Source: a virus
DNA: 45,019 nt
IMG/VR virus record: IMGVR_UViG_3300048020_000066
Location: 1-45,019 of that record
Direction: 5' to 3' (one strand)
The position numbers and the translations under genes were made by a program. A model generated the notes under the pieces. That model worked only from the letters and a program-made list of their open reading frames with translations. It was not told where the DNA came from and ran no database searches. Below are positions 3,792-13,358 of the stretch, piece after piece (position 1 is the stretch's first letter; the number at the start of each line of letters is the position of its first letter).

Positions 3792-5220
3792 AGAAACTCT
3801 CCAGTGATTGTCTTCTATTAGGTAAGAATAAATCTTTATTTGTTTTAGAGAACCACCATACGTTTTCCATGTATAGTTTTTTCATAAAGTCTTGCATTGC
3901 AGTTCTATCAATACCTTCTTTATCTGATACTTGATTGTCGTCACTATCACCTTTCACGTCTGACCACTTCTCTAAGAATGCAGTAGAAGATTGAGGTCTT
4001 TGCATGATTCTCATTCCTATCTGACCTTTGAAGTGTTCTCTTAATTCGTCTACTACTTCGTCACATGAAGGGAACATTTTACCTTTCACCTTCGGATTCA
4101 TAATATTAATAAGTAAGTGTCCGTCTTCGGATAACACTTCAAATGATTTTTTAGAAACTGGAATGAAGAAGTCATCTCTCCATGATTCATATTCTGAGAA
4201 CTTACTCCATGATTGGTCTTCTTCATGTTCTCCACCTTTGTTATATGTCTCTGTTGAGAAATATGGTGGTGAAGTAAATGCACAATCTACTGGTGGGAAT
4301 TTTTCATAAGGAATATCCTCTGCACCACTCCTATAGATTACAACTCTCTTCTCACCAACTGACATAAACTTGTCTTTGGTTTCTGTAATTGTAGGTGTAT
4401 TACCTGTAAGAATCTTTTCATATTCTATACATTGTTTCTTATACACTTCGAATGTGTTTGGATTAGGGTCACAACCAATATACATTTCTGTTCTTTGACT
4501 TGCAAAGAATCCACATAGTCGGTCACCCCAACCACAACTAGTGTCTAATACAATTCTTGCATCAGTCATTTCATAGAAACACTTTGCAACTACTGGTTTG
4601 AATTGTGTTGCAATATAGGCTCCTAGTCTGAATGCCATTCTGTAAGTGTCTTCTCTTAATGAACCACCTACTAACTTAACTATTTCTTTTCCGTCTACGT
4701 CTGTTGATATCTCTTTTTGAATATCATTAACACCTCTCCATATTGCACCGAGAGGTGATTTTAATTCTTTTGCAGTTGATTCTTTAAATGCATTCAATGG
4801 AGCTCTATGTCCATATGAATCACATGCAAGTCTTAAGTGTTGCATGAAGTAATCACTTGCATCATTAAATGTGGAAGGTGCATTGACCATTCCATGTCCC
4901 CATTCTGAATATGGGTATTTGTAGTCGTCATATTTTTCTACGACTTCTTCTTCTAAATTTTCGTGTGGATATACAAACTTCCATACATCATAATGTAAGA
5001 GTTTGATAAAAGTGTTTCTCATATCTTCATGAGAGATTTGTTTTAGAGGAAACTCGGGTCTTTCTTTTTCGATATAATCTGCAAGAACCTCACGGAACTT
5101 TTCTCTTCCGTATTCTTCTGTTAATGCATCAAAGAGTTTACCCTCAATTAAAGGTAAACCCTTCTCGTTTGCATTGTCTTTTAAGACTTGATATAGTTTA
5201 TCCGACAAACTCGTCCCCAT
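3784..5220 (-). CDS. Orphan DNA methyltransferase (TSPPY type) with clamp-binding tail
   Basis: About 478 aa amino-methyltransferase. Roughly 220 N-terminal residues without a motif I recognise are followed by AdoMet motif I (VLDTSCGWGD, near 226) and catalytic motif IV TSPPY (near 316). TSPPY is typical of N4-cytosine or N6-adenine enzymes. No restriction endonuclease is adjacent, so it is an orphan enzyme, perhaps for self-modification of phage DNA. The last ten residues, RRQSLESFFG, match the QxxLxxFF clamp-binding pattern and resemble the polymerase end SLDSFFG, implying recruitment to gp45. The start is ATG 5220; GTG at 5232 is an alternative. It overlaps the peroxiredoxin stop. Base specificity cannot be told. 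Confidence 0.88.
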   Translation of the reverse strand: MGTSLSDKLYQVLKDNANEKGLPLIEGKLFDALTEEYGREKFREVLADYIEKERPEFPLKQISHEDMRNTFIKLLHYDVWKFVYPHENLEEEVVEKYDDYKYPYSEWGHGMVNAPSTFNDASDYFMQHLRLACDSYGHRAPLNAFKESTAKELKSPLGAIWRGVNDIQKEISTDVDGKEIVKLVGGSLREDTYRMAFRLGAYIATQFKPVVAKCFYEMTDARIVLDTSCGWGDRLCGFFASQRTEMYIGCDPNPNTFEVYKKQCIEYEKILTGNTPTITETKDKFMSVGEKRVVIYRSGAEDIPYEKFPPVDCAFTSPPYFSTETYNKGGEHEEDQSWSKFSEYESWRDDFFIPVSKKSFEVLSEDGHLLINIMNPKVKGKMFPSCDEVVDELREHFKGQIGMRIMQRPQSSTAFLEKWSDVKGDSDDNQVSDKEGIDRTAMQDFMKKLYMENVWWFSKTNKDLFLPNRRQSLESFFG

Positions 5221-5719
5221 CGTTCCATGCACAACCTGTTAGTCCACCTGCTTGTAAACCTTGTAAAGTTCTAAGAACTTCGGTGTGGTTTCTTCCAGTG
5301 TCTAATGCATTGACTGACGCATGTTGGATTGTTCTGTTTTTGTCAAAGATAAAGGTTGCACGATAACATACACCCTCTTCTTCATTAACAATACCTAATA
5401 GTGAAGATAATCCTAGTCCACAATCAGCTGCAAGTGTATGTCTGATATTACCTATCAATTCATTCTCTTGTTTCCATGCTAATTTACAGAACTCATTATC
5501 ACCACTAATTCCTATCACGTTTGCATGGTCGACTAAATTGTCAAAACCAGCAATCTCTGTAGGACATATAAAGGTAAAGTCTTTTGGATAAAAGTAGATT
5601 ACTGACCAATCATGTTTTAATGGTTGATAATTTTCGTCTACACTAACTCTCACAAATTCGTTGTTTTCATTTATTCCTTGCAGTGAGAAAGCAGGGAATT
5701 GTTGTCCAACTGTTAACAT
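5198..5719 (-). CDS. 2-Cys peroxiredoxin (AhpC/TSA family)
   Basis: 173 aa thiol peroxidase that reduces hydrogen peroxide and organic peroxides. The peroxidatic site is PKDFTFICPTE with P45, T49 and C52. The supporting Arg is in YRATFIFDKN. C163 in the C-terminal GCAW segment can act as resolving Cys, as in Prx1/AhpC enzymes. The C-terminal tail is short. It needs a host thioredoxin or AhpF-type reductant; none is encoded here. AAAGGAG precedes the ATG and a sigma70-like promoter lies upstream within a 9-bp inverted repeat. It is followed by the methyltransferase with an overlap. Probable role: protecting the infected cell against oxidative stress. Confidence 0.93.
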   Translation of the reverse strand: MLTVGQQFPAFSLQGINENNEFVRVSVDENYQPLKHDWSVIYFYPKDFTFICPTEIAGFDNLVDHANVIGISGDNEFCKLAWKQENELIGNIRHTLAADCGLGLSSLLGIVNEEEGVCYRATFIFDKNRTIQHASVNALDTGRNHTEVLRTLQGLQAGGLTGCAWNDGDEFVG

Positions 5720-5740
5720 AATAATTCTCCTTTATATAAA

Positions 5741-5778
5741 GATACACCCATTATACAATATAACGGGTGTATCGTAAA
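5741..5778 (-). promoter_or_regulatory. Peroxiredoxin promoter within a 9-bp inverted repeat
   Basis: GATACACCC (5741-5749) and GGGTGTATC (5765-5773) form a perfect inverted repeat with a 15-nt centre. The centre holds TATAAT on the minus strand (5750-5755). TTTACG (5773-5778), 17 nt upstream, is a 4/6 match to a -35 box. It may be a repressor or activator operator, or a hairpin that also ends the hsp20 transcript. There is no long U-tract, so a terminator is less convincing. Confidence 0.55.
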
Positions 5779-5786
5779 GGGGTTTT

Positions 5787-6197
5787 CTATTTAATTTTAA
5801 TAGAAACTGGTTTATCCTCTTCGGGGATAACTCTAACCAGTTTGACGTGTAGAATTCCGTCTACCATGTCTGCACCACTAACCTCAACATCATCTGCAAG
5901 TGTAAAGGTTCTTTTGAAAGCTCTTGAAGCAAGTCCTTTATGGACAAAATCCTTTGAGTCTTCATCTACTTTACCTTCGATTGATAAGACATTTCTTTCT
6001 TTAGTGATATCAATGTCTTTCTTACCAAATCCTGCGACTGCGAGTTCAATGCAATAGTTCTCTGCATCTTCCTTTACAATGTTATAAGGTGGGTAGTTAG
6101 TAGTCGTATGATGTGTTAGTCTTTCGAGTTCATCGAAGTATCTATCAAATCCTACAGTAAGCGGTCTGAATTGACCAAATATATCTAAATGCGTCAT
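5787..6197 (-). CDS. hsp20: Small heat-shock protein Hsp20 (IbpA-like)
   Basis: 136 aa ATP-independent holdase chaperone. The N-terminal arm (FGQFRPLTVGFDRYFDELE) resembles IbpA. The alpha-crystallin domain spans about 35-125, with LAVAGFGKKDIDI, the conserved SRAFKRTFTL strand and GILHVKL. A C-terminal I-x-I motif (SIKIK) for oligomer assembly is present. Hsp20 genes are common in T4-like marine phages, where they are thought to assist virion protein folding. The ATG is preceded by AGGAGAAAAAT. It has its own promoter and a roughly 140-nt structured leader (6198-6342), suggesting post-transcriptional or temperature control. Confidence 0.94.
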   Translation of the reverse strand: MTHLDIFGQFRPLTVGFDRYFDELERLTHHTTTNYPPYNIVKEDAENYCIELAVAGFGKKDIDITKERNVLSIEGKVDEDSKDFVHKGLASRAFKRTFTLADDVEVSGADMVDGILHVKLVRVIPEEDKPVSIKIK

Positions 6198-6386: not shown

Positions 6387-6776
6387 TTATCTTTTTTTAC
6401 AATTTTTTTGTGAATCAGTTAATACATTGTAATTATTACCGACCACTAGGAACATTAAACCATTAACTTGTCGGATACTTCGACTAGACAAGTTTCCTTG
6501 TTTCTTATCATATTTTAATGCTGGAACAAAGACTGCCGTTTTTACAAAAACCATATCACCGATTGAAGGCCTCTCTCCTATGATAGGATTTAGTTCTCTT
6601 ACACAATCGTATTGAAGACCACGATAAGTTGAGTAGACATCTAATAATTGTAATGTGGTAAAGACTACCCAGTCTGTTGATGTGGGTGGTTCAACTATTC
6701 TCCAATGGAGTGTAGATAGTGACTTGTTCTTCTTTTCCCTTAACTTTGATTCTATCAACTTCTGAGAATTTTCCAT
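6387..6776 (-). CDS. Small polytopic membrane protein (DUF5658-like)
   Basis: 129 aa from the ATG at 6776, overlapping the cyclase 3' end by 86 nt. The reading frame stays open further upstream, but that part is antisense-frame shadow of the cyclase. The region after the overlap looks real: a hydrophobic segment TTLQLLDVYSTYRGL, then CVRELNPIIGERPS, VFVKTAVFVPAL and NGLMFLVVGNNYNVL. The D-x-x-x-T...ELNP...K pattern resembles DUF5658-type membrane proteins. It is the last gene of the curli/cyclase operon. The start is uncertain because no Shine-Dalgarno is obvious. Function unknown. Confidence 0.6.
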   Translation of the reverse strand: MENSQKLIESKLREKKNKSLSTLHWRIVEPPTSTDWVVFTTLQLLDVYSTYRGLQYDCVRELNPIIGERPSIGDMVFVKTAVFVPALKYDKKQGNLSSRSIRQVNGLMFLVVGNNYNVLTDSQKNCKKR

Positions 6777-8544
6777 TCGGACATTGTCGATATGTCTCTG
6801 ATGATAACAACACGTCCACCCCTTCGTAATTACGAGTTTGTCCTTCGAGTCTAGCTCCCAAGTTGACGGCGTCTCCAATGACGGAATAGTCAAATCTAAG
6901 TTCTGACCCCATGTTTCCAACGATGCACTCACCAGTGCTAATCCCAATACCCACGTTAATGGGTGGAAGATTAAGTGGTTGCAATTCTTCATTGAGTTCC
7001 TTAGTTGCTCGTAAAACTTCGAGTGCAGATTTAACTGCTAGTTCAGCATGATTTGGACAATCCAAAGGTGCATTCCAAAAACTCATTATGCAGTCGCCCA
7101 TGTATTTGTCTATGGTTCCTTTATTATTTAGTATAATTTTAGTTTGCATGTCTAAGAACTTGTTTATGAGTTCTACCAATCCTTCGGGGTCGTCTTTGTT
7201 TTTATAGTGTTCGCTTATGGGGGTGAATCCACATATGTCCATAAACATGAATGTCATTTCTTTTCTATCACCACCAAGTTTTAATAATTCGGGGTTTTCT
7301 GCAAGTTGGTCAACCATGTCGGGAGATAAATACTTTTGAAACTGCTTCTTAATTTGTTCTTTGAGTTGATAGGTTTTATAGTATTTGTTGAAAGAAGCAT
7401 GTCCAAACACAACTATGGAGGCCATCGATGAGTAGAAGATATCGAAAAGAACGAAACTTGAAGTCCACAAATAGAAACCCAAACCCACCTGAAATCCAAC
7501 AATACCTAGACTCACTATCCCCGAAAAAATTGTGGGAAGTGTGTAGACCGATACCATTATTCCTAGAAGGACTGTCAAAAGAAGAACAGTCTCTAAAAAT
7601 TCAAGATAGTAGGATTGTTGTATTTGAACTCCTGTGGAGACGGACTGGAGGATTGAAGCTTGAACTTCGTGGGGATACTTTACACCCACTGGGGTTGAAA
7701 CTGGATTATTCAGACCTTCCGCCGTCAGACCCCATATCAGAATCTTATCTTCTAAATTAACTAGAGGTAAATCTTTTGCAGACACCCTCTCGAATTCATT
7801 CCAATATCCTATAAGGATATCTGCAGTTGGAGTGGTTTCGATGGGGGGTTGTCTCCCTATACGAATCCATTCTATTCCAACTTCGGGTGTCACTCTAGTC
7901 TGATAATTCTGTTGGTCAAACATTGCACGTAAAACTTCTAGTGCAACTGAAGGATACACTACACCATTTGCAGAAACAATCAATGGTGCAGAACGAACTG
8001 TTCCGTCAAAGTTTGCAGTTCCACTGACTGGTGGTGTTGTGACCGTGACTCCACTACCATAAGAATTTTGTTCTAAGATAGGTATTGGACTTGCAATACC
8101 CGAGAAAGTCCATATATGGTCTTCTATATTTCCTCCACCAAACACACTTGTTCTAACGAATGGTGCAGAACCAGTGTCCTTTTGTATGGTCGGTGCAGAA
8201 GATAAAATCGATAAACGATTAACTAATCCTTCTGCAAATAATTCATCTTTTCCTGAAATCCTATCAGGTTCTTTGAAGAGTTGAGTAAAAACATGTGTAT
8301 TAGTGTATGAAGTGTCAAGCATTAAATCCCTGTAAATAGACCTTGGCCATGGATACTGACCATACACTTCAAGTGAAGGTTCGTCTATATCTACTAAGAC
8401 AATGTTATCTACCTGAACTATTTCCTGAGATTGGTGTAGATAATCAAAGTAAGACCATGATACATTTTCTATAAAATAGGGATTCCAAATTTTAAGTCCG
8501 AATAGCAACCCTATAGTCACTACGACTGTTTTCCACGAATACAT
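6691..8544 (-). CDS. CHASE2-domain class III adenylate cyclase
   Basis: 617 aa membrane sensor-cyclase making cAMP. An N-terminal membrane helix (about 5-20) is followed by an extracytoplasmic CHASE2 domain (about 30-300, with VDIDEPSLEVYGQYPWPRS and PVGVKYPHEVQASIL), three membrane helices (about 310-385), a short linker and a cyclase domain (about 430-610). Metal-binding D436 (FMFMDICGFT) and D484 (DKYMGD), adenine-selecting K480, substrate D552, and transition-state N561/R565 (VNLGARLE) are all present. It should be active and specific for ATP. The ATG overlaps the curlin stop (TAATG). CHASE2 cyclases often accompany FecR-domain proteins in bacteria, as here. Phage-borne copies are unusual. 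Confidence 0.93.
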   Translation of the reverse strand: MYSWKTVVVTIGLLFGLKIWNPYFIENVSWSYFDYLHQSQEIVQVDNIVLVDIDEPSLEVYGQYPWPRSIYRDLMLDTSYTNTHVFTQLFKEPDRISGKDELFAEGLVNRLSILSSAPTIQKDTGSAPFVRTSVFGGGNIEDHIWTFSGIASPIPILEQNSYGSGVTVTTPPVSGTANFDGTVRSAPLIVSANGVVYPSVALEVLRAMFDQQNYQTRVTPEVGIEWIRIGRQPPIETTPTADILIGYWNEFERVSAKDLPLVNLEDKILIWGLTAEGLNNPVSTPVGVKYPHEVQASILQSVSTGVQIQQSYYLEFLETVLLLTVLLGIMVSVYTLPTIFSGIVSLGIVGFQVGLGFYLWTSSFVLFDIFYSSMASIVVFGHASFNKYYKTYQLKEQIKKQFQKYLSPDMVDQLAENPELLKLGGDRKEMTFMFMDICGFTPISEHYKNKDDPEGLVELINKFLDMQTKIILNNKGTIDKYMGDCIMSFWNAPLDCPNHAELAVKSALEVLRATKELNEELQPLNLPPINVGIGISTGECIVGNMGSELRFDYSVIGDAVNLGARLEGQTRNYEGVDVLLSSETYRQCPNGKFSEVDRIKVKGKEEQVTIYTPLENS

Positions 8545-9347
8545 TAATTACCTTGTGTCACTGATACAGAACAACCACCTACCGTAATACAATTTTGTGT
8601 AAGTGAATATGTTTGTGCTATACTTCCTGTTTGGGTTAAACTTAAATCTGTCGGGTAAGTTCCACCTATTGTTATTGTTGCAGTGTGAGCTCCAGTCTTT
8701 TTCTGAACTATTGCAACTTCATTTGAATCGTTATTAATTGTTCCTGTAAGTGTCTTATTTCCATTCTGCATTTGTTTTGCATAAACATCATTATAATCAC
8801 CGTAAATGTTCCATATCATACTATGTTGAATAGTATCTGAATCTTGTTTCTGACTTCCTTTGAAATCATTATAGTCACCATGGATATCTAATCTTACATA
8901 GTTTCCACCAGGCTCATATCCGTCATAACTCCAATTAGGTGATAAACTATTATTGTTTTCATATCCTTGTCCAAAAACAACTTCATTGTAATTACCCCAA
9001 ACATGAAATCCAAAATCGTTATCATTACAATTTCCTGATGAACACTTCTGTCTAACGTCTATATCATTATTATATCCGTCTAAGTCACCACCCCATTGTT
9101 TGCCTGAACCCCATGTATCAGTATAACCAAAATACAATCCATTACCTTGTTGTAAAAGATTTATTGTATTGTTTTGGTGGTCAAAGGAAAACCGTGCAAG
9201 GTTGTTATAACCTATTTGGTCTATATTTAAATCTGCATTGTCACCACCACTGACTTGTTCTACATGAACGTGATTATCGTCTGCATAAGAAAACATAGGG
9301 ATTATTAAAATCCCTATGAAAAGAAATGTTTTCTTTAAAATAACCAT
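8544..9347 (-). CDS. Secreted curlin-like amyloid repeat protein 1 (CsgA/CsgB-like)
   Basis: 267 aa with an N-terminal signal peptide (hydrophobic 6-20, cleavage near SYA). Curlin-type repeats are visible: NIDQIGYNNLA, LLQQGNGLYFG and several G-x-Y-N-D/E-V/F units (GNYNEV, GDYNDF, GDYNDV), then SLTQTGSIAQTYSLTQ. Q, N and G dominate, as in amyloid subunits exported through CsgG. Four Cys residues (CSSGNC, and CITVGGC near the end) are atypical for CsgA. No Shine-Dalgarno: the ATG lies inside the preceding 48-aa gene, implying coupling. It is followed directly by the cyclase. It could be fibre subunit or nucleator. Confidence 0.8.
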   Translation of the reverse strand: MVILKKTFLFIGILIIPMFSYADDNHVHVEQVSGGDNADLNIDQIGYNNLARFSFDHQNNTINLLQQGNGLYFGYTDTWGSGKQWGGDLDGYNNDIDVRQKCSSGNCNDNDFGFHVWGNYNEVVFGQGYENNNSLSPNWSYDGYEPGGNYVRLDIHGDYNDFKGSQKQDSDTIQHSMIWNIYGDYNDVYAKQMQNGNKTLTGTINNDSNEVAIVQKKTGAHTATITIGGTYPTDLSLTQTGSIAQTYSLTQNCITVGGCSVSVTQGN

Positions 9348-9502: not shown

Positions 9503-10660
9503 TTAGTTAGATTGATTGATAAAGATACGTATGCTGGGGTCTCCGTTTCCGAACTCTATTATACCTTCCCAACCTTCTACCCTAGTGTCTATGAAACCCG
9601 AACCACCTGATGCAACGGTTATTTCAATAACACCATTCACATTTCTATACAAATACAAGTCTCCGTCTTCTACAAATATGTTAAATTGTGAGTCTTTATT
9701 GAATCCTAGTGTTGCACCCTTTAGGTCATACTCACCTGTTTTTCCTTTTTGTCTGTCACCAAGACTTGCAGTTGTCTTTTCTAATGCTTCTACTATGTCT
9801 AATAAATCTGTAAGGAAGTCTACATCTAGAAAATCTATATCTAGTCTACTTCCTCTTGCATCATAATTCTCATCTGTATAATCATCTATATCTTTTTCTA
9901 ATTCATTAAATTCTAAAAAATCAACATCAAGAACACCTTGGTCTTGGTCGAGGTCATCTGCAGCCTGTTCTTCTACTGCTTGTTTTACTTCTTGTGGTGG
10001 GTTAACAATAAACATATTGTCAATGAGACCAACTGTTAAATTGTTTATTACTACTGATTGAGTTGGTGGTTGGTCTAAACTTGATACCATTGTTGCTTGG
10101 TAAGCTTGGTTTAGAATTGTTTCTCCACCTTCATTATACACTCTGATTTCACCCGAAGGAGTCACTCCGTCCTCGTCTGGCAAAAGTATAACAAGTGTTC
10201 TTCCTAGTTCATCAATAGTTGTTGTGAAATCTGTTCCGTTAATTGCTATCTGAGCAGTTGGTGTTTGTATGTCTATGTTTGCTTTCTTTATTTTGTTTCC
10301 CTTACCCGAAGCAAATCGTGCCGTTCCTTGCACCATTCTCATAGCCATTTTTGATTTAGAAGGGTCGGGGTCGTAATACACTTCGTCAATGTATACAACT
10401 GTATGTTCGATTAGGTCAAGTTTTTCTTCGTCTAAAAACTCAATCTTCATTCTACCATTTACGGTTTCTGCAACGTCATATAGTTCAATACCAAAACCAA
10501 CGTTTGGTTTTTCTATATCTTGGTTTTGTCTTGTGAGTTTAGATAGTCCGATAGATTCTACAATATCACCAATGGGGTCACTATGTATGACCCCACTGAT
10601 AAACATGAGATTAATTACTATCGCTAGATGAATCTTTTTGAGTAATTTGGATTGTTGCAT
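9503..10660 (-). CDS. FecR-domain secreted protein
   Basis: About 385 aa. An N-terminal signal peptide (KKIHLAIVINLMFISGVIHS) precedes a FecR-like domain at about 40-205. The FecR signature is clear: ARFASGKGNKIKKANIDIQTPTAQI, with TPTAQIAINGTDF and LGRTLVILLPD. A low-complexity acidic stretch with DVDFL/DIDFL repeats (about 240-290) follows, then a beta-rich C-terminal domain. The start is ATG 10660 inside the curlin-2 3' end. FecR-domain proteins of this secreted type are commonly encoded next to CHASE2 cyclases, as here. It probably acts in the periplasm or outside the cell, not as the classic anti-sigma regulator. Confidence 0.85.
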   Translation of the reverse strand: MQQSKLLKKIHLAIVINLMFISGVIHSDPIGDIVESIGLSKLTRQNQDIEKPNVGFGIELYDVAETVNGRMKIEFLDEEKLDLIEHTVVYIDEVYYDPDPSKSKMAMRMVQGTARFASGKGNKIKKANIDIQTPTAQIAINGTDFTTTIDELGRTLVILLPDEDGVTPSGEIRVYNEGGETILNQAYQATMVSSLDQPPTQSVVINNLTVGLIDNMFIVNPPQEVKQAVEEQAADDLDQDQGVLDVDFLEFNELEKDIDDYTDENYDARGSRLDIDFLDVDFLTDLLDIVEALEKTTASLGDRQKGKTGEYDLKGATLGFNKDSQFNIFVEDGDLYLYRNVNGVIEITVASGGSGFIDTRVEGWEGIIEFGNGDPSIRIFINQSN

Positions 10661-11345
10661 TATCACTTGTAATATCCAGTGTAATTAGTGCATTAGGTGT
10701 TGCACATGCAGCGTTTGACGGCGAACATGTTCCACTAATTTGTGTAATATCCATATCTGCACTATCTCCGTCTAGGTCAACAACTATAGATTGTTCCCCG
10801 TCTGACTGAAGTGTGTTAATATTATTACTTGAACCCGTGACTTCAAAGTCCCAAGTTAAGTCATCACTTTCCCAATCAATATCAAAAACATTCGAACTAC
10901 CGATTAGTATTAAGTCTGAATTAAGTCTCTCTGCACTATACACACTACCTTGGTCAAGGTCGAAAGTATTACTACTTCCAGTGACATCAAAGTTAATGTC
11001 TGATGAGTCTGCACTACCTACATCTCCGATTAACCAGTCTATACTGTTTGAATCACCAGTAAAGTCTAGTTTATACACTGAACTATCTGCTTCAACAGAA
11101 CCGAACAGCTTATTTGAATTTCCTAAAAAGTCCAAATCAAAGTCCAAAGTTGCACCAGTAATAGTCATAGCTGCTGAAGCAGTTGCATCAGAACCTATCT
11201 TATTACCAAAACCAATTTGGTCTATATACAAGTCTAAAGTATCACCTGTTTGGGTAATCTTAATCTCGTTGTCATCAGTGGATTGTGCGAAAAGAATTGG
11301 TGTCGACATTATTGCAATTAAGCAAAAACTAATAAGTTTATTCAT
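10611..11345 (-). CDS. Secreted curlin-like repeat protein 2
   Basis: 244 aa with signal peptide (LISFCLIAIMSTPILFAQS). The mature part starts with curlin-like units (IKITQTGDTLDLYIDQIGFGNKIG) and continues with a repeated G-[DNS]-S-N unit flanked by alternating Asp/hydrophobic strands (FLGNSNKLFG, FTGDSNSIDW, VTGSSNTFDL, LIGSSNVFDI, VTGSSNNINT). It ends with DITQISG and IQITQKD. It is strongly Asp/Ser-rich and acidic, unlike classic CsgA. AGAGGAAAACGAAA precedes the ATG. It is encoded right after the CsgG-like pore, with its start overlapping. It is probably an amyloid-like beta-solenoid substrate of the CsgG/CsgF system. Confidence 0.8.
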   Translation of the reverse strand: MNKLISFCLIAIMSTPILFAQSTDDNEIKITQTGDTLDLYIDQIGFGNKIGSDATASAAMTITGATLDFDLDFLGNSNKLFGSVEADSSVYKLDFTGDSNSIDWLIGDVGSADSSDINFDVTGSSNTFDLDQGSVYSAERLNSDLILIGSSNVFDIDWESDDLTWDFEVTGSSNNINTLQSDGEQSIVVDLDGDSADMDITQISGTCSPSNAACATPNALITLDITSDNATIQITQKDSSSDSN

Positions 11346-12285
11346 TTTCGTTTTCCTCTGTATTTAAATCATGGAGTTCGTTTTTCCCATCTGCTTGATG
11401 AGGGTGACGATGTCCATCTGTTATTTTCCAAAAACCTCTATCGTGTCCTTGGTAAACTAATTCCAGCACTGCAGCTTCTATTGCAGTTCTCACTGCATAA
11501 GTCACTGATTCATTATTTCCCACTCCGTCTTCAATCTCTACCAACTGAGTTCCTTGTTCAACATATTTAAATATGTCACCACTTCCTCCAACTGATAATA
11601 TAGATTTCCGAGTCTGCACATTCAATAACACTTCACCAGTAAGAACTGAAACAGCTCTCATGGATATTGTCACAATGTCTTGACGATATTGTTGACTATA
11701 TCCAATTCCGAGGGTTCTTGCGCCTGTTCCCCCAGTTCTGACATTAGTGTCATATCCTATTATTCCACCTTCAATTATAATTCCAGCAAATAATAGGGGT
11801 TGGACACCTTTTGCTTGAGTGTCCGTTGCTTTCGCAAAATCTTGTCTTGCAGAACGTATGATTTGTCTTTCTCTGACTAATGCGTCTATACCATTTCGTT
11901 CTACGACTCTAAACCATGTTCCACCACCAGCAGTCTTAAGTGCATCGATAACCATTTCGACACCACCTTGGGTGACTGCAGTAGAGAAATCTGCAATACC
12001 TTCTCTGTTTTTTCTCTGACCAGTTTTGTCTGTAAAATTATAAACTGCAACTATGGGTCTCTCTTCGGCAGGTGGTAAGTTTAATAACTCAACAAAAGAA
12101 GGTAAGTTAACTACAACGGGTGCTTCTACACATATGTAGTTTCGGGATATAGGTTTACGTATCCCAGTTATTGCGTCCTTTCTTACTCCGTCTTCCCAGT
12201 TCTTACAATCTTGTGGGGTGTCTGAGAATTTTGGGACACTGGCACAACTAGAAACTAAAAGTGCAACTAGTAAATATCTCAACAT
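11338..12285 (-). CDS. csgG: CsgG-like curli secretion pore lipoprotein
   Basis: 315 aa (E. coli CsgG is 277). Lipoprotein signal with lipobox VSSC (C14). CsgG family motifs: PIVAVYNFTDKTGQRK, STAVTQGGVEMVIDAL, WFRVVERNGIDALVRERQI, FAGIIIEGGIIGYDTN, and the RQDIVTISMRAVSVLTGEVL region. The family forms a nonameric outer-membrane channel that exports curlin subunits. The C-terminus has a His-rich tail (HRHPHQADGKNELH) not typical of E. coli CsgG. The start overlaps the csgF-like stop (TAATG). There is no CsgE partner nearby, so gating may be by host or unrelated proteins. Confidence 0.93.
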   Translation of the reverse strand: MLRYLLVALLVSSCASVPKFSDTPQDCKNWEDGVRKDAITGIRKPISRNYICVEAPVVVNLPSFVELLNLPPAEERPIVAVYNFTDKTGQRKNREGIADFSTAVTQGGVEMVIDALKTAGGGTWFRVVERNGIDALVRERQIIRSARQDFAKATDTQAKGVQPLLFAGIIIEGGIIGYDTNVRTGGTGARTLGIGYSQQYRQDIVTISMRAVSVLTGEVLLNVQTRKSILSVGGSGDIFKYVEQGTQLVEIEDGVGNNESVTYAVRTAIEAAVLELVYQGHDRGFWKITDGHRHPHQADGKNELHDLNTEENENE

Positions 12286-12785
12286 TATCCACCACCGTCA
12301 CCCGTTCCAATGTCGGGGTCTTGACCGAAGTTTCCAGTTCCGATTGGTATTTCAATCACTGTTTCAGAACCACTAGAATCAACGATAGTCATTTTAATAA
12401 CGTCTGTTCCTTCTGCATTAGTCACTACTTCCCATGTTATAATACTTCCTTCAAGTGCAAAAGAACCAAAGTTTGTTGCATTGTCATTACTGAACATTGA
12501 CTCGACTAATTGTTTAGACAACTGAGCATAAATTCTGCTTTCTAAGTTTCTAATAAATTTTGCAAGTGTAGTATTTTCTGCTTCTCTTTGTGCAGCTTTT
12601 TCGGCACTTGCTAATGCGTCCTCTATTGCTTTCTTACGGCTGGATTCTTGGTTCTCAATCGTAAGATAATGAGCACCAGTTCCTATGCCTGAGAATGAGG
12701 GATTTTTAAATTTGTGAACTATATCAGCTTCAACTGAAAATGATAGTAGACACAACAAATATGTAATAGGTAATACTTTAGTCAT
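12285..12785 (-). CDS. csgF: CsgF-like curli assembly factor
   Basis: 166 aa from the ATG at 12785, chosen because GGAAGGAATCT precedes it; an upstream in-frame start at 12818 would put a basic stretch before the signal peptide. The signal peptide is VLPITYLLCLLSFSVEA. The mature N-terminus FKNPSFSGIG matches the FxNPxFGG CsgG-binding segment of CsgF. A helix (about 50-115) follows, then a C-terminal beta part (EGSIITWEVV..TVIEIPIG). CsgF plugs the CsgG pore outside the cell and anchors the nucleator. It is encoded directly before the csgG-like gene, so the pore pair is kept together. Confidence 0.88.
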   Translation of the reverse strand: MTKVLPITYLLCLLSFSVEADIVHKFKNPSFSGIGTGAHYLTIENQESSRKKAIEDALASAEKAAQREAENTTLAKFIRNLESRIYAQLSKQLVESMFSNDNATNFGSFALEGSIITWEVVTNAEGTDVIKMTIVDSSGSETVIEIPIGTGNFGQDPDIGTGDGGG

Positions 12786-13062
12786 TGTTAGATTCCTTCC
12801 TTTTCTTTTCATTTTCACGGTATTCTAAAACAACGTCAACTTTTTCTTTTAAACGAATTAAGTCTTGGTCAAGCATTCTTGTTTGGTCAATGACTCGAAT
12901 CAATGCAAAGTGCATTTTTTCTATTTCGGGGTCTATATGTTCACTAATAAAGTTCCATACAAAATAAACGAAATATCCAAGTCCTACCATCATGACTACG
13001 GGGAATCCGTAATCGGTAATCAATTCTACAATCATAGGGACTTCTGAAACTACTTCTTCCAT
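12778..13062 (-). CDS. Small membrane protein, BhlA/UviB holin-like
   Basis: 94 aa: a short acidic N-terminus, one hydrophobic segment (about 17-37, FPVVMMVGLGYFVYFVWNFI), then a charged coiled-coil tail ending in KKRKESNND. This layout matches BhlA/UviB-type holin-like proteins and also the neighbouring 98-aa protein at 13062-13358, of which it may be a diverged duplicate. GGAGGGATTA precedes the ATG, which overlaps the upstream stop. It overlaps the csgF-like start by 8 nt, so it is part of the curli operon. A holin role is inferred from layout only. Confidence 0.75.
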   Translation of the reverse strand: MEEVVSEVPMIVELITDYGFPVVMMVGLGYFVYFVWNFISEHIDPEIEKMHFALIRVIDQTRMLDQDLIRLKEKVDVVLEYRENEKKRKESNND

Positions 13063-13358
13063 TAATCCCTCCTTACATCAAGTTTTCCGTCCTCTATAAA
13101 GTTCTCTGCTCTTGCAACTCTGTCTATATCGGGTCTTAACTCTAATGCACTTGACACTAACATATCTATCTTAATCATTTCGTTAGACATTGTTCTTGCA
13201 CGATTCTCTAAAGATTCGCAAAACATTGTTAGTGTTTTTATGGAATCAACTATACCTTCCATGATTTGTCTAATTATTAGAAAGATGAATACACCCATGA
13301 CCAATGCCATTGCAATTGGGACACCCACATCACCTATCAAATCGAATATAGCTTCCAT
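13062..13358 (-). CDS. Small membrane protein heading the curli operon
   Basis: 98 aa. The N-terminal hydrophobic helix (about 9-31, VGVPIAMALVMGVFIFLIIRQI) is followed by a long amphipathic helix and a charged tail. The topology equals that of the next gene product (TM then coiled coil), as in BhlA/UviB-type proteins or oligomeric membrane adaptors. It is the first gene after the late promoter TATAAATA, which lies 5 nt before the ATG; there is no Shine-Dalgarno, so a leaderless late mRNA is predicted. Function unknown. Confidence 0.75.
   Translation of the reverse strand: MEAIFDLIGDVGVPIAMALVMGVFIFLIIRQIMEGIVDSIKTLTMFCESLENRARTMSNEMIKIDMLVSSALELRPDIDRVARAENFIEDGKLDVRRD

Follow-up and report, generated by a model that had tools for sequence, protein, structure and literature searches.

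The window analyzed here is the whole stretch of 45,019 bases of a virus record, which derives from a marine phage and contains T4-like genes, as judged by eye. Its minus strand carries a curli (T8SS) cassette whose last gene codes for an adenylate cyclase (AC), and two further coding frames, one on each strand, appear to overlap the AC gene. The features are the following, each with the evidence on which it is based:

6387..6992, minus strand: putative gene for a DUF5658-like protein, 201 amino acids, whose codons 1–100 lie in the +1 frame of AC codons 518–617 (6691–6992); open frame and synonymous identity.
6691..8544, minus strand: protein with CHASE2 and class III adenylate cyclase domains, 617 amino acids, ATG start; Pfam, residues and model.
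7325..7332, plus strand: GATAAATA, a motif like T4 late promoters; conserved position and codons.
7417..7421, plus strand: GGAGG, putative Shine-Dalgarno (SD) sequence of the antisense gene; sequence context and conservation.
7428..7760, plus strand: putative antisense gene, 110 amino acids, inside AC codons 262–373; stop depletion, conserved ATG and SD.
8544..9347, minus strand: curlin2, a second curlin-like protein, 267 amino acids; no Pfam match, viral HMM matches common to the first curlin.
9503..10666, minus strand: FecR-domain protein, 387 amino acids; PF04773, E 1.4e-8.
10611..11345, minus strand: curlin (CsgA/B-like), 244 amino acids; PF07012, E 1e-4.
11338..12285, minus strand: CsgG; PF03783, E 2.1e-51.
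12285..12818, minus strand: CsgF; PF10614, E 7.3e-16.
12778..13062, minus strand: small cassette protein resembling a transmembrane or coiled-coil protein, 94 amino acids; phrog_18771, no Pfam match, syntenic.
13062..13358, minus strand: paralogous small protein, 98 amino acids; phrog_18771, no Pfam match, syntenic.

The cassette runs in the order two small membrane-like proteins, CsgF, CsgG, curlin, FecR, curlin2 and AC, and this order is conserved in related viral contigs. The gene set and order CsgF-CsgG-curlin-FecR-curlin-AC are those of the pelagiphage T8SS module, to which HTVC008M belongs, as far as the available portions of PMC9599517 and PMC7029224 describe it. According to the available portion of PMC9599517, the module is found in podo- and myo-pelagiphages, includes FecR and AC (the latter not always present), is of alphaproteobacterial origin and is expressed in metatranscriptomes; FecR and AC are called alien to bacterial curli operons. 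The curli part is described in the corresponding portions of PMC7029224 and PMC9004378. In PMC9599517, a histidine kinase gene precedes CsgF. At this place, the window has the two proteins of 94–98 amino acids (12778–13358), which match phrog_18771 and no Pfam family at E 0.1. Neither CHASE2 nor an overlap in the AC gene is mentioned in the portion of PMC9599517 available, whereas both are found here. In a CsgG scan, FecR and AC are found in all 33 loci which have at least 5.5 kb downstream (33 of the 79 loci have that much), a figure biased to near relatives because the loci are the best matches to the CsgG alignment used.

The preliminary description of this sequence considered a phage AC unusual, but such an AC is already known. 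It is annotated as adenylate/guanylyl cyclase in HTVC008M (AGE60353.1) and likewise in Melnitz, PHROG 35576 covers the whole protein, and it closes the pelagiphage curli cassette published in PMC9599517, to judge from the portion available. With the cassette already in print, the cyclase itself adds little new. A tblastn search with the AC matched 8 of 50,697 phage records. Two of them, from Acinetobacter (H7 and H8), were rejected: H7, the one examined, contains mfd and isc genes and looks like a bacterial contig. In IMG/VR, the window AC has 250 relatives and the HTVC008M AC at least 585; 80 of each set were studied.

Just downstream of the cassette, the window has peroxiredoxin (AhpC/TSA) and Hsp20 genes (5198–6197). 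The second curlin protein of HTVC008M (L082, 6658–7980) has a PA14 domain plus curlin repeats.

The minus-strand frame at 6691–8544 codes for a protein with both of the domains previously proposed, each over its curated Pfam cut-off: CHASE2 (PF05226) at residues 14–328 (E 2.5e-27, 96.5 bits, cut-off 26.3) and Guanylate_cyc (PF00211) at residues 428–609 (E 4.2e-19, 69.3 bits, cut-off 21.9). The catalytic residues D436, K480, D484, D552, N561 and R565 occupy exactly the positions given in the preliminary description. We take D436 and D484 to be the metal Asp pair, K480 and D552 the Lys/Asp pair for ATP, and N561 and R565 the residues for the transition state. Their conservation was followed in an alignment of 83 viral ACs (the window, 80 IMG/VR loci, HTVC008M and Melnitz). 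D436 is found in 81 of them (one Y in L061, one gap), K480 and D484 in 82 each (one gap each), D552 in 80 (one S in Melnitz, two gaps), N561 in 79 (one S in Melnitz, three gaps) and R565 in 80 (three gaps). Mean identity to the window is 0.85 in the cyclase domain, the best conserved part of the protein, 0.69 in CHASE2 and 0.67 in the transmembrane region.

An AlphaFold2 model of the AC was obtained from a 48-sequence alignment (pLDDT 87.9). Membrane helices are predicted around CHASE2, as had been proposed, but four of them are likely, not three: residues 4–20 before CHASE2, and 312–335, 338–363 and 370–403 after it. CHASE2 would lie between N-terminal and C-terminal membrane helices, as in CHASE2 receptor cyclases. 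The cyclase domain of the model overlays Pseudomonas aeruginosa CyaB (3r5g) with Z 27.1 and rmsd 1.6 over 187 residues, with 36% identity. The VIA-align overlay covers mainly AC residues 379–617, so the CHASE2 fold is barely probed. Comparing the catalytic domain alone, the cyclase fold and the catalytic residues are the same, and no misaligned ligands, a case considered in the preliminary description, are seen in the predicted structure. The N-terminal part of CyaB is different from that of the phage AC. K480 and D552 fit the pattern of CyaB, an adenylyl cyclase, while the guanylyl cyclase Cya2 (2w01) has E at the K position. The sequence supports an ATP-type class III cyclase which is encoded by a phage, is catalytically complete and has a CHASE2 sensor. 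We regard it as a real inner-membrane CHASE2 adenylate cyclase which is probably active, as judged from its residues and model.

Activity is probably not kept in all relatives, but lost or altered in some, because Melnitz has D552S and N561S and L061 has D436Y. The AC of the cultured phage Melnitz (L083, 9983–12031), with S at both the adenine-binding Asp and the transition-state Asn, also has a C-terminal extension. From these residues, it is possibly inactive.

The window phage cannot be tied to one host: the terminase most similar to its own is that of Phage C48C1 (54.6%), which has no named host. A SAR11 16S probe gave matches in two of 385 genomes, and the 197 genomes in the family of one of them were searched. 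We take the probe sequence to be SAR11, and hence this family to be SAR11 as well. The cNMP-binding domain PF00027 is matched in 12 of these 197 genomes and in none of the other 185. Three of the 12 matches have E about 1e-14, eight are weak, and seven are in an 870 amino acid frame. At E ≤ 1, none of 16 phage records, several of which are fragments, has a PF00027 match. PF00211 is over its cut-off in two of the 197 genomes, both times on phage-like contigs. We have rejected these matches as a class III AC of SAR11 itself, as both contigs contain curli cassettes and, by eye, phage genes; the match in G453 is below the cut-off. Curli cassettes with AC are found on phage-like contigs binned in two genomes of this family (L312 and L313, in G398 and G434). 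An 863 amino acid protein of the same family (L316, 3497–6088), found in several genomes, matches a cNMP-binding domain weakly and could receive cAMP.

These results bear on the idea, put forward in the preliminary description, that the cyclase reprograms host transcription via a host CRP-type receptor. The class III AC with K480 and D552 typical of ATP use, the 12 genomes with PF00027 and the host which is not fixed all agree with it. It nevertheless appears unlikely, as the great majority of the presumed SAR11 genomes and all 16 phage records lack a cNMP domain match, and both cyclases over the cut-off in this family are on phage-like contigs. Because most SAR11 genomes sampled have no cNMP-binding protein, the classical CRP route is doubtful, and unlikely in most strains, if SAR11 is the host. 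In that case, the case for host carbon metabolism being reprogrammed through cAMP is weak as well. With a receptor missing in most of the SAR11 genomes sampled, the role of phage cAMP becomes a sharp question. An alternative explanation is that the cyclase domain is a remnant, and that the protein acts as a membrane sensor or scaffold whose output is not cAMP. The missing receptor and the substitutions in Melnitz and L061 fit this explanation. We consider it quite improbable, since nearly all 83 viral ACs retain the catalytic residues and no other domain is as well conserved as the cyclase.

The AC gene appears to code for other proteins as well. For this analysis, ACs were divided into clade A, which are window-like, and clade B, which are HTVC008M-like and also include Melnitz. 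In 75 of 77 clade A sequences, no stop interrupts the +1 frame of the catalytic domain over the last 80 or more codons before the AC stop. This is so in 0.15% of synonymous shuffles, which retain the AC protein and its codon use and do not model evolution. In clade B the frame is open in 0 of 81 sequences, with stops at the same place. Among 20 clade A representatives with less than 85% nucleotide identity, 3 stops are seen where 132 are expected; these come from a single sequence, L047, in which the AC is short too. The start codon of the nested frame is ATG in 69 and TTG in 7 of the 77 clade A sequences, and is absent in one. The overlap is 95–107 codons long in 71 of 76 sequences, 122 in four and 46 in one. 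An SD-like string precedes the start in 50 of 76, just GAAG in 15 of those 50; in the window, AAGGA is followed by five bases and the ATG (6992). Median synonymous identity over 1355 divergent pairs is 0.69 in the overlap and 0.52 immediately before it.

The protein encoded in this frame is related to DUF5658 (PF18902). In the window the match is weak, 20.6 bits vs. a gathering cut-off of 25.2, and it lies at residues 113–157, beyond the overlap. In a set of 20 relatives (A3), 18 match at E ≤ 0.1, and L389 is over the cut-off with 25.7 bits. Many of the nested N-termini look like signal peptides by eye, including that of the window. A model of the protein has pLDDT 70 overall, is below 50 at residues 1–48 and is confident solely past the overlap. 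A structure search with this model gave one clear match, an uncharacterized protein from an uncultured virus. The gene also occurs without a long overlap: it follows the AC with a short overlap in L377 and L389, and lies between FecR and AC in L313, each form with its own hydrophobic N-terminus. As the DUF frame is continuous with the 3' end of the AC gene, its domain might be made as an AC fusion by ribosomal frameshifting. We think this very improbable: the open frame starts about 100 codons upstream, at an ATG or TTG conserved in 76 of 77 sequences, and the three forms with little or no overlap each have a hydrophobic N-terminus of their own. A separate gene with its own start is the reading that we prefer.

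The second overlap is antisense, under the end of CHASE2 and the membrane helices. A conserved protein of about 93–112 amino acids is encoded there in 53 of 62 distinct clade A sequences, with 21 invariant positions among 18 aligned members. Its frame has 9 stops in 19 representatives vs. 81.5 expected. Synonymous identity at AC codons 276–400 has medians of 0.73 and 0.69, compared with 0.43–0.50 before. Recombination as the cause of this constraint was dropped after divergent-pair and antisense tests. ATG and SD are present in all 53 carriers, while both together appear in 1.7% of shuffles. The nine sequences without the gene have no SD (0/9), and the ATG is absent in all of them bar one. They form one clade nested in the carriers, so the gene looks as if it had been lost once.

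A possible promoter accompanies this gene. We take GATAAATA, at 7325, to resemble T4 late promoters, which have a TATAAATA-like element. The ATAAATA heptamer starts 102 nt before the antisense ATG, and the distance is the same in 52 of 52 other sequences. The corresponding sense codons TAT TTA TCN (TATTTAT) are fixed in 53 of 53 carriers; the nine other sequences have TAC TTA TCA for the same amino acids, and TATTTAT in 0 of 9. The heptamer occurs a single time on the plus strand of the window, and on the minus strand motifs of this type precede several structural genes, as seen by eye. The case for a promoter depends on conservation, because, by a rough estimate from base composition, the window has no fewer copies of the heptamer than chance would give. 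A sigma-70 scan gave no signal (12 sites vs. 12.0 expected). A late timing of the gene is suggested by this motif.

The antisense protein has 233 matched relatives in IMG/VR. No homologues were found outside an AC gene: 79 of 80 loci are inside an intact AC and one is in a split AC. There are no matches in phage records or in Pfam, and the best match in PHROGs has E 0.14. Weaker homologues are present in L348, L377 and L389 (HMM E 6e-25 to 5e-19). They add little, because they are about half identical to the window in the antisense protein, and to the same extent in the AC region.

Both overlaps were also followed in a held-out set of 28 distinct ACs from the CsgG scan, outside the training set. 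The +1 frame is stop-free in 17 of them, all with a DUF match; the remaining 11 have 4–14 stops, and 8 of these 11 have no DUF match. Antisense ATG, SD, late motif and absence of stops are found together in 10 of 28. Seven sequences have both overlaps, three only the antisense one and ten only the DUF one. Since each occurs without the other, the two overlaps are separate modules. Clade B, which includes HTVC008M, has neither of them.

Could these frames be open by chance, codon bias or shared ancestry, with no overlapping genes? The sequences are related, so the counts are not independent, and conservation of the AC protein is reflected in other frames. We give this explanation very little credit. 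Stops are far below the shuffle expectation in both frames, the sister clade carries stops in the +1 frame at the same place, and synonymous identity is higher in both overlaps. The antisense ATG, SD and late motif are found together in every carrier and, but for that one ATG, are jointly missing in the nested clade. The held-out set agrees. Frames open beyond synonymous expectation, reduced synonymous change and conserved start and ribosome sites (SD-like strings in only 50 of 76 for the nested DUF gene) are what is expected of overlapping genes. There is strong evidence in the sequences that the AC gene is dual-coding twice in the clade of the window, and the two proteins are presumably translated.

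As far as we have searched, dual coding of the AC gene is new; we found no description of it in the literature, judging by titles and the first part of abstracts. As in the overprinted viral genes reviewed in PMC8227390, insofar as the available part of the review describes them, two proteins would come from one DNA stretch. Unlike those cases, the gene in question codes for an enzyme of cellular type and carries one gene on its own strand plus another, antisense to it, which has a late-type promoter motif. Catalytic and membrane-domain codons which each serve a second protein would provide a strong example of overprinting in genomes that are not small and compact. This is notable because the largest related records have 130–152 kb, with no obvious need to save space. 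The two genes are hidden from standard annotation in many marine phages, as indicated by the antisense relatives in IMG/VR, and scanning for synonymous constraint could reveal other hidden genes.

The AC and FecR genes are also found together in bacteria. Among the nearest bacterial AC loci (the best 80 of 568 confirmed), 39 have a FecR homologue, which in 23 is directly upstream, on the same strand and within 500 bp. HMMs for CsgG, CsgF and curlin matched none of these 80 loci. Conversely, CsgG is found in 66 of 385 genomes searched for alphaproteobacterial curli; among 20 regions examined, 5 are clusters with csgF, csgG and curlin, and neither FecR nor AC was found in the 20 kb covered for any of these 5. 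The available portions of two papers describe similar pairs: CyaD1 is near the FecR-domain gene SMc02177 in Sinorhizobium (PMC5498481), and clusters of Campylobacterota pair CHASE2-AC with FecR genes (PMC9239204). In these accounts, the bacterial systems have a CRP-type protein (Clr), or a phosphodiesterase and a TPR protein, and no curli, while no receptor was found for the phage. As FecR and CHASE2-AC recur as a pair in bacteria apart from curli, the cassette of the phage has the appearance of a curli module to which a FecR/CHASE2-AC module was joined. It is plausible that the AC responds to the secreted fibre, as had been suggested, given its place at the end of the curli cassette and the FecR-domain genes next to its bacterial relatives. 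By analogy with these pairs, it may sense secretion via FecR.

Taken as a whole, the explanation which we consider likely is that a probably active CHASE2 AC closes a known curli cassette, that its gene contains two further coding frames, and that the cassette links secretion to cAMP signalling. Curlins would be exported by CsgF and CsgG, and the periplasmic FecR-domain protein would report the state of secretion to CHASE2. The DUF5658-like membrane protein, partly encoded inside the AC gene, perhaps also reports to it. CHASE2 would then switch cAMP synthesis in the cytoplasm. Within the same AC gene, the +1 frame would hold the 5' half of the DUF5658-like gene, and the opposite strand an antisense gene that has an SD and a late-type promoter motif of its own.

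A further proposal is more tentative, and we would not be surprised if it proved wrong. About a third of the AC gene (212 of 617 codons) would be read twice, for the start of a secreted DUF5658-like protein and for a complete antisense gene which has a late promoter of its own; the curli cassette and the cAMP sensor may be turned off late, while a new late protein is made. The phage could switch them off in this way because an antisense late transcript would oppose the AC/curli message. If true, this would be a testable early/late switch.

A different arrangement is found in a marine alphaproteobacterial locus (L129, 8248–12802 and 18328–21273). On one side of the AC is a gene for a HlyD-type secretion protein with a fused cNMP-binding domain, on the other a stand-alone cNMP-binding gene, and a giant protein with RTX and FecR domains is encoded nearby. 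This arrangement might correspond to a cAMP-linked type I secretion system.
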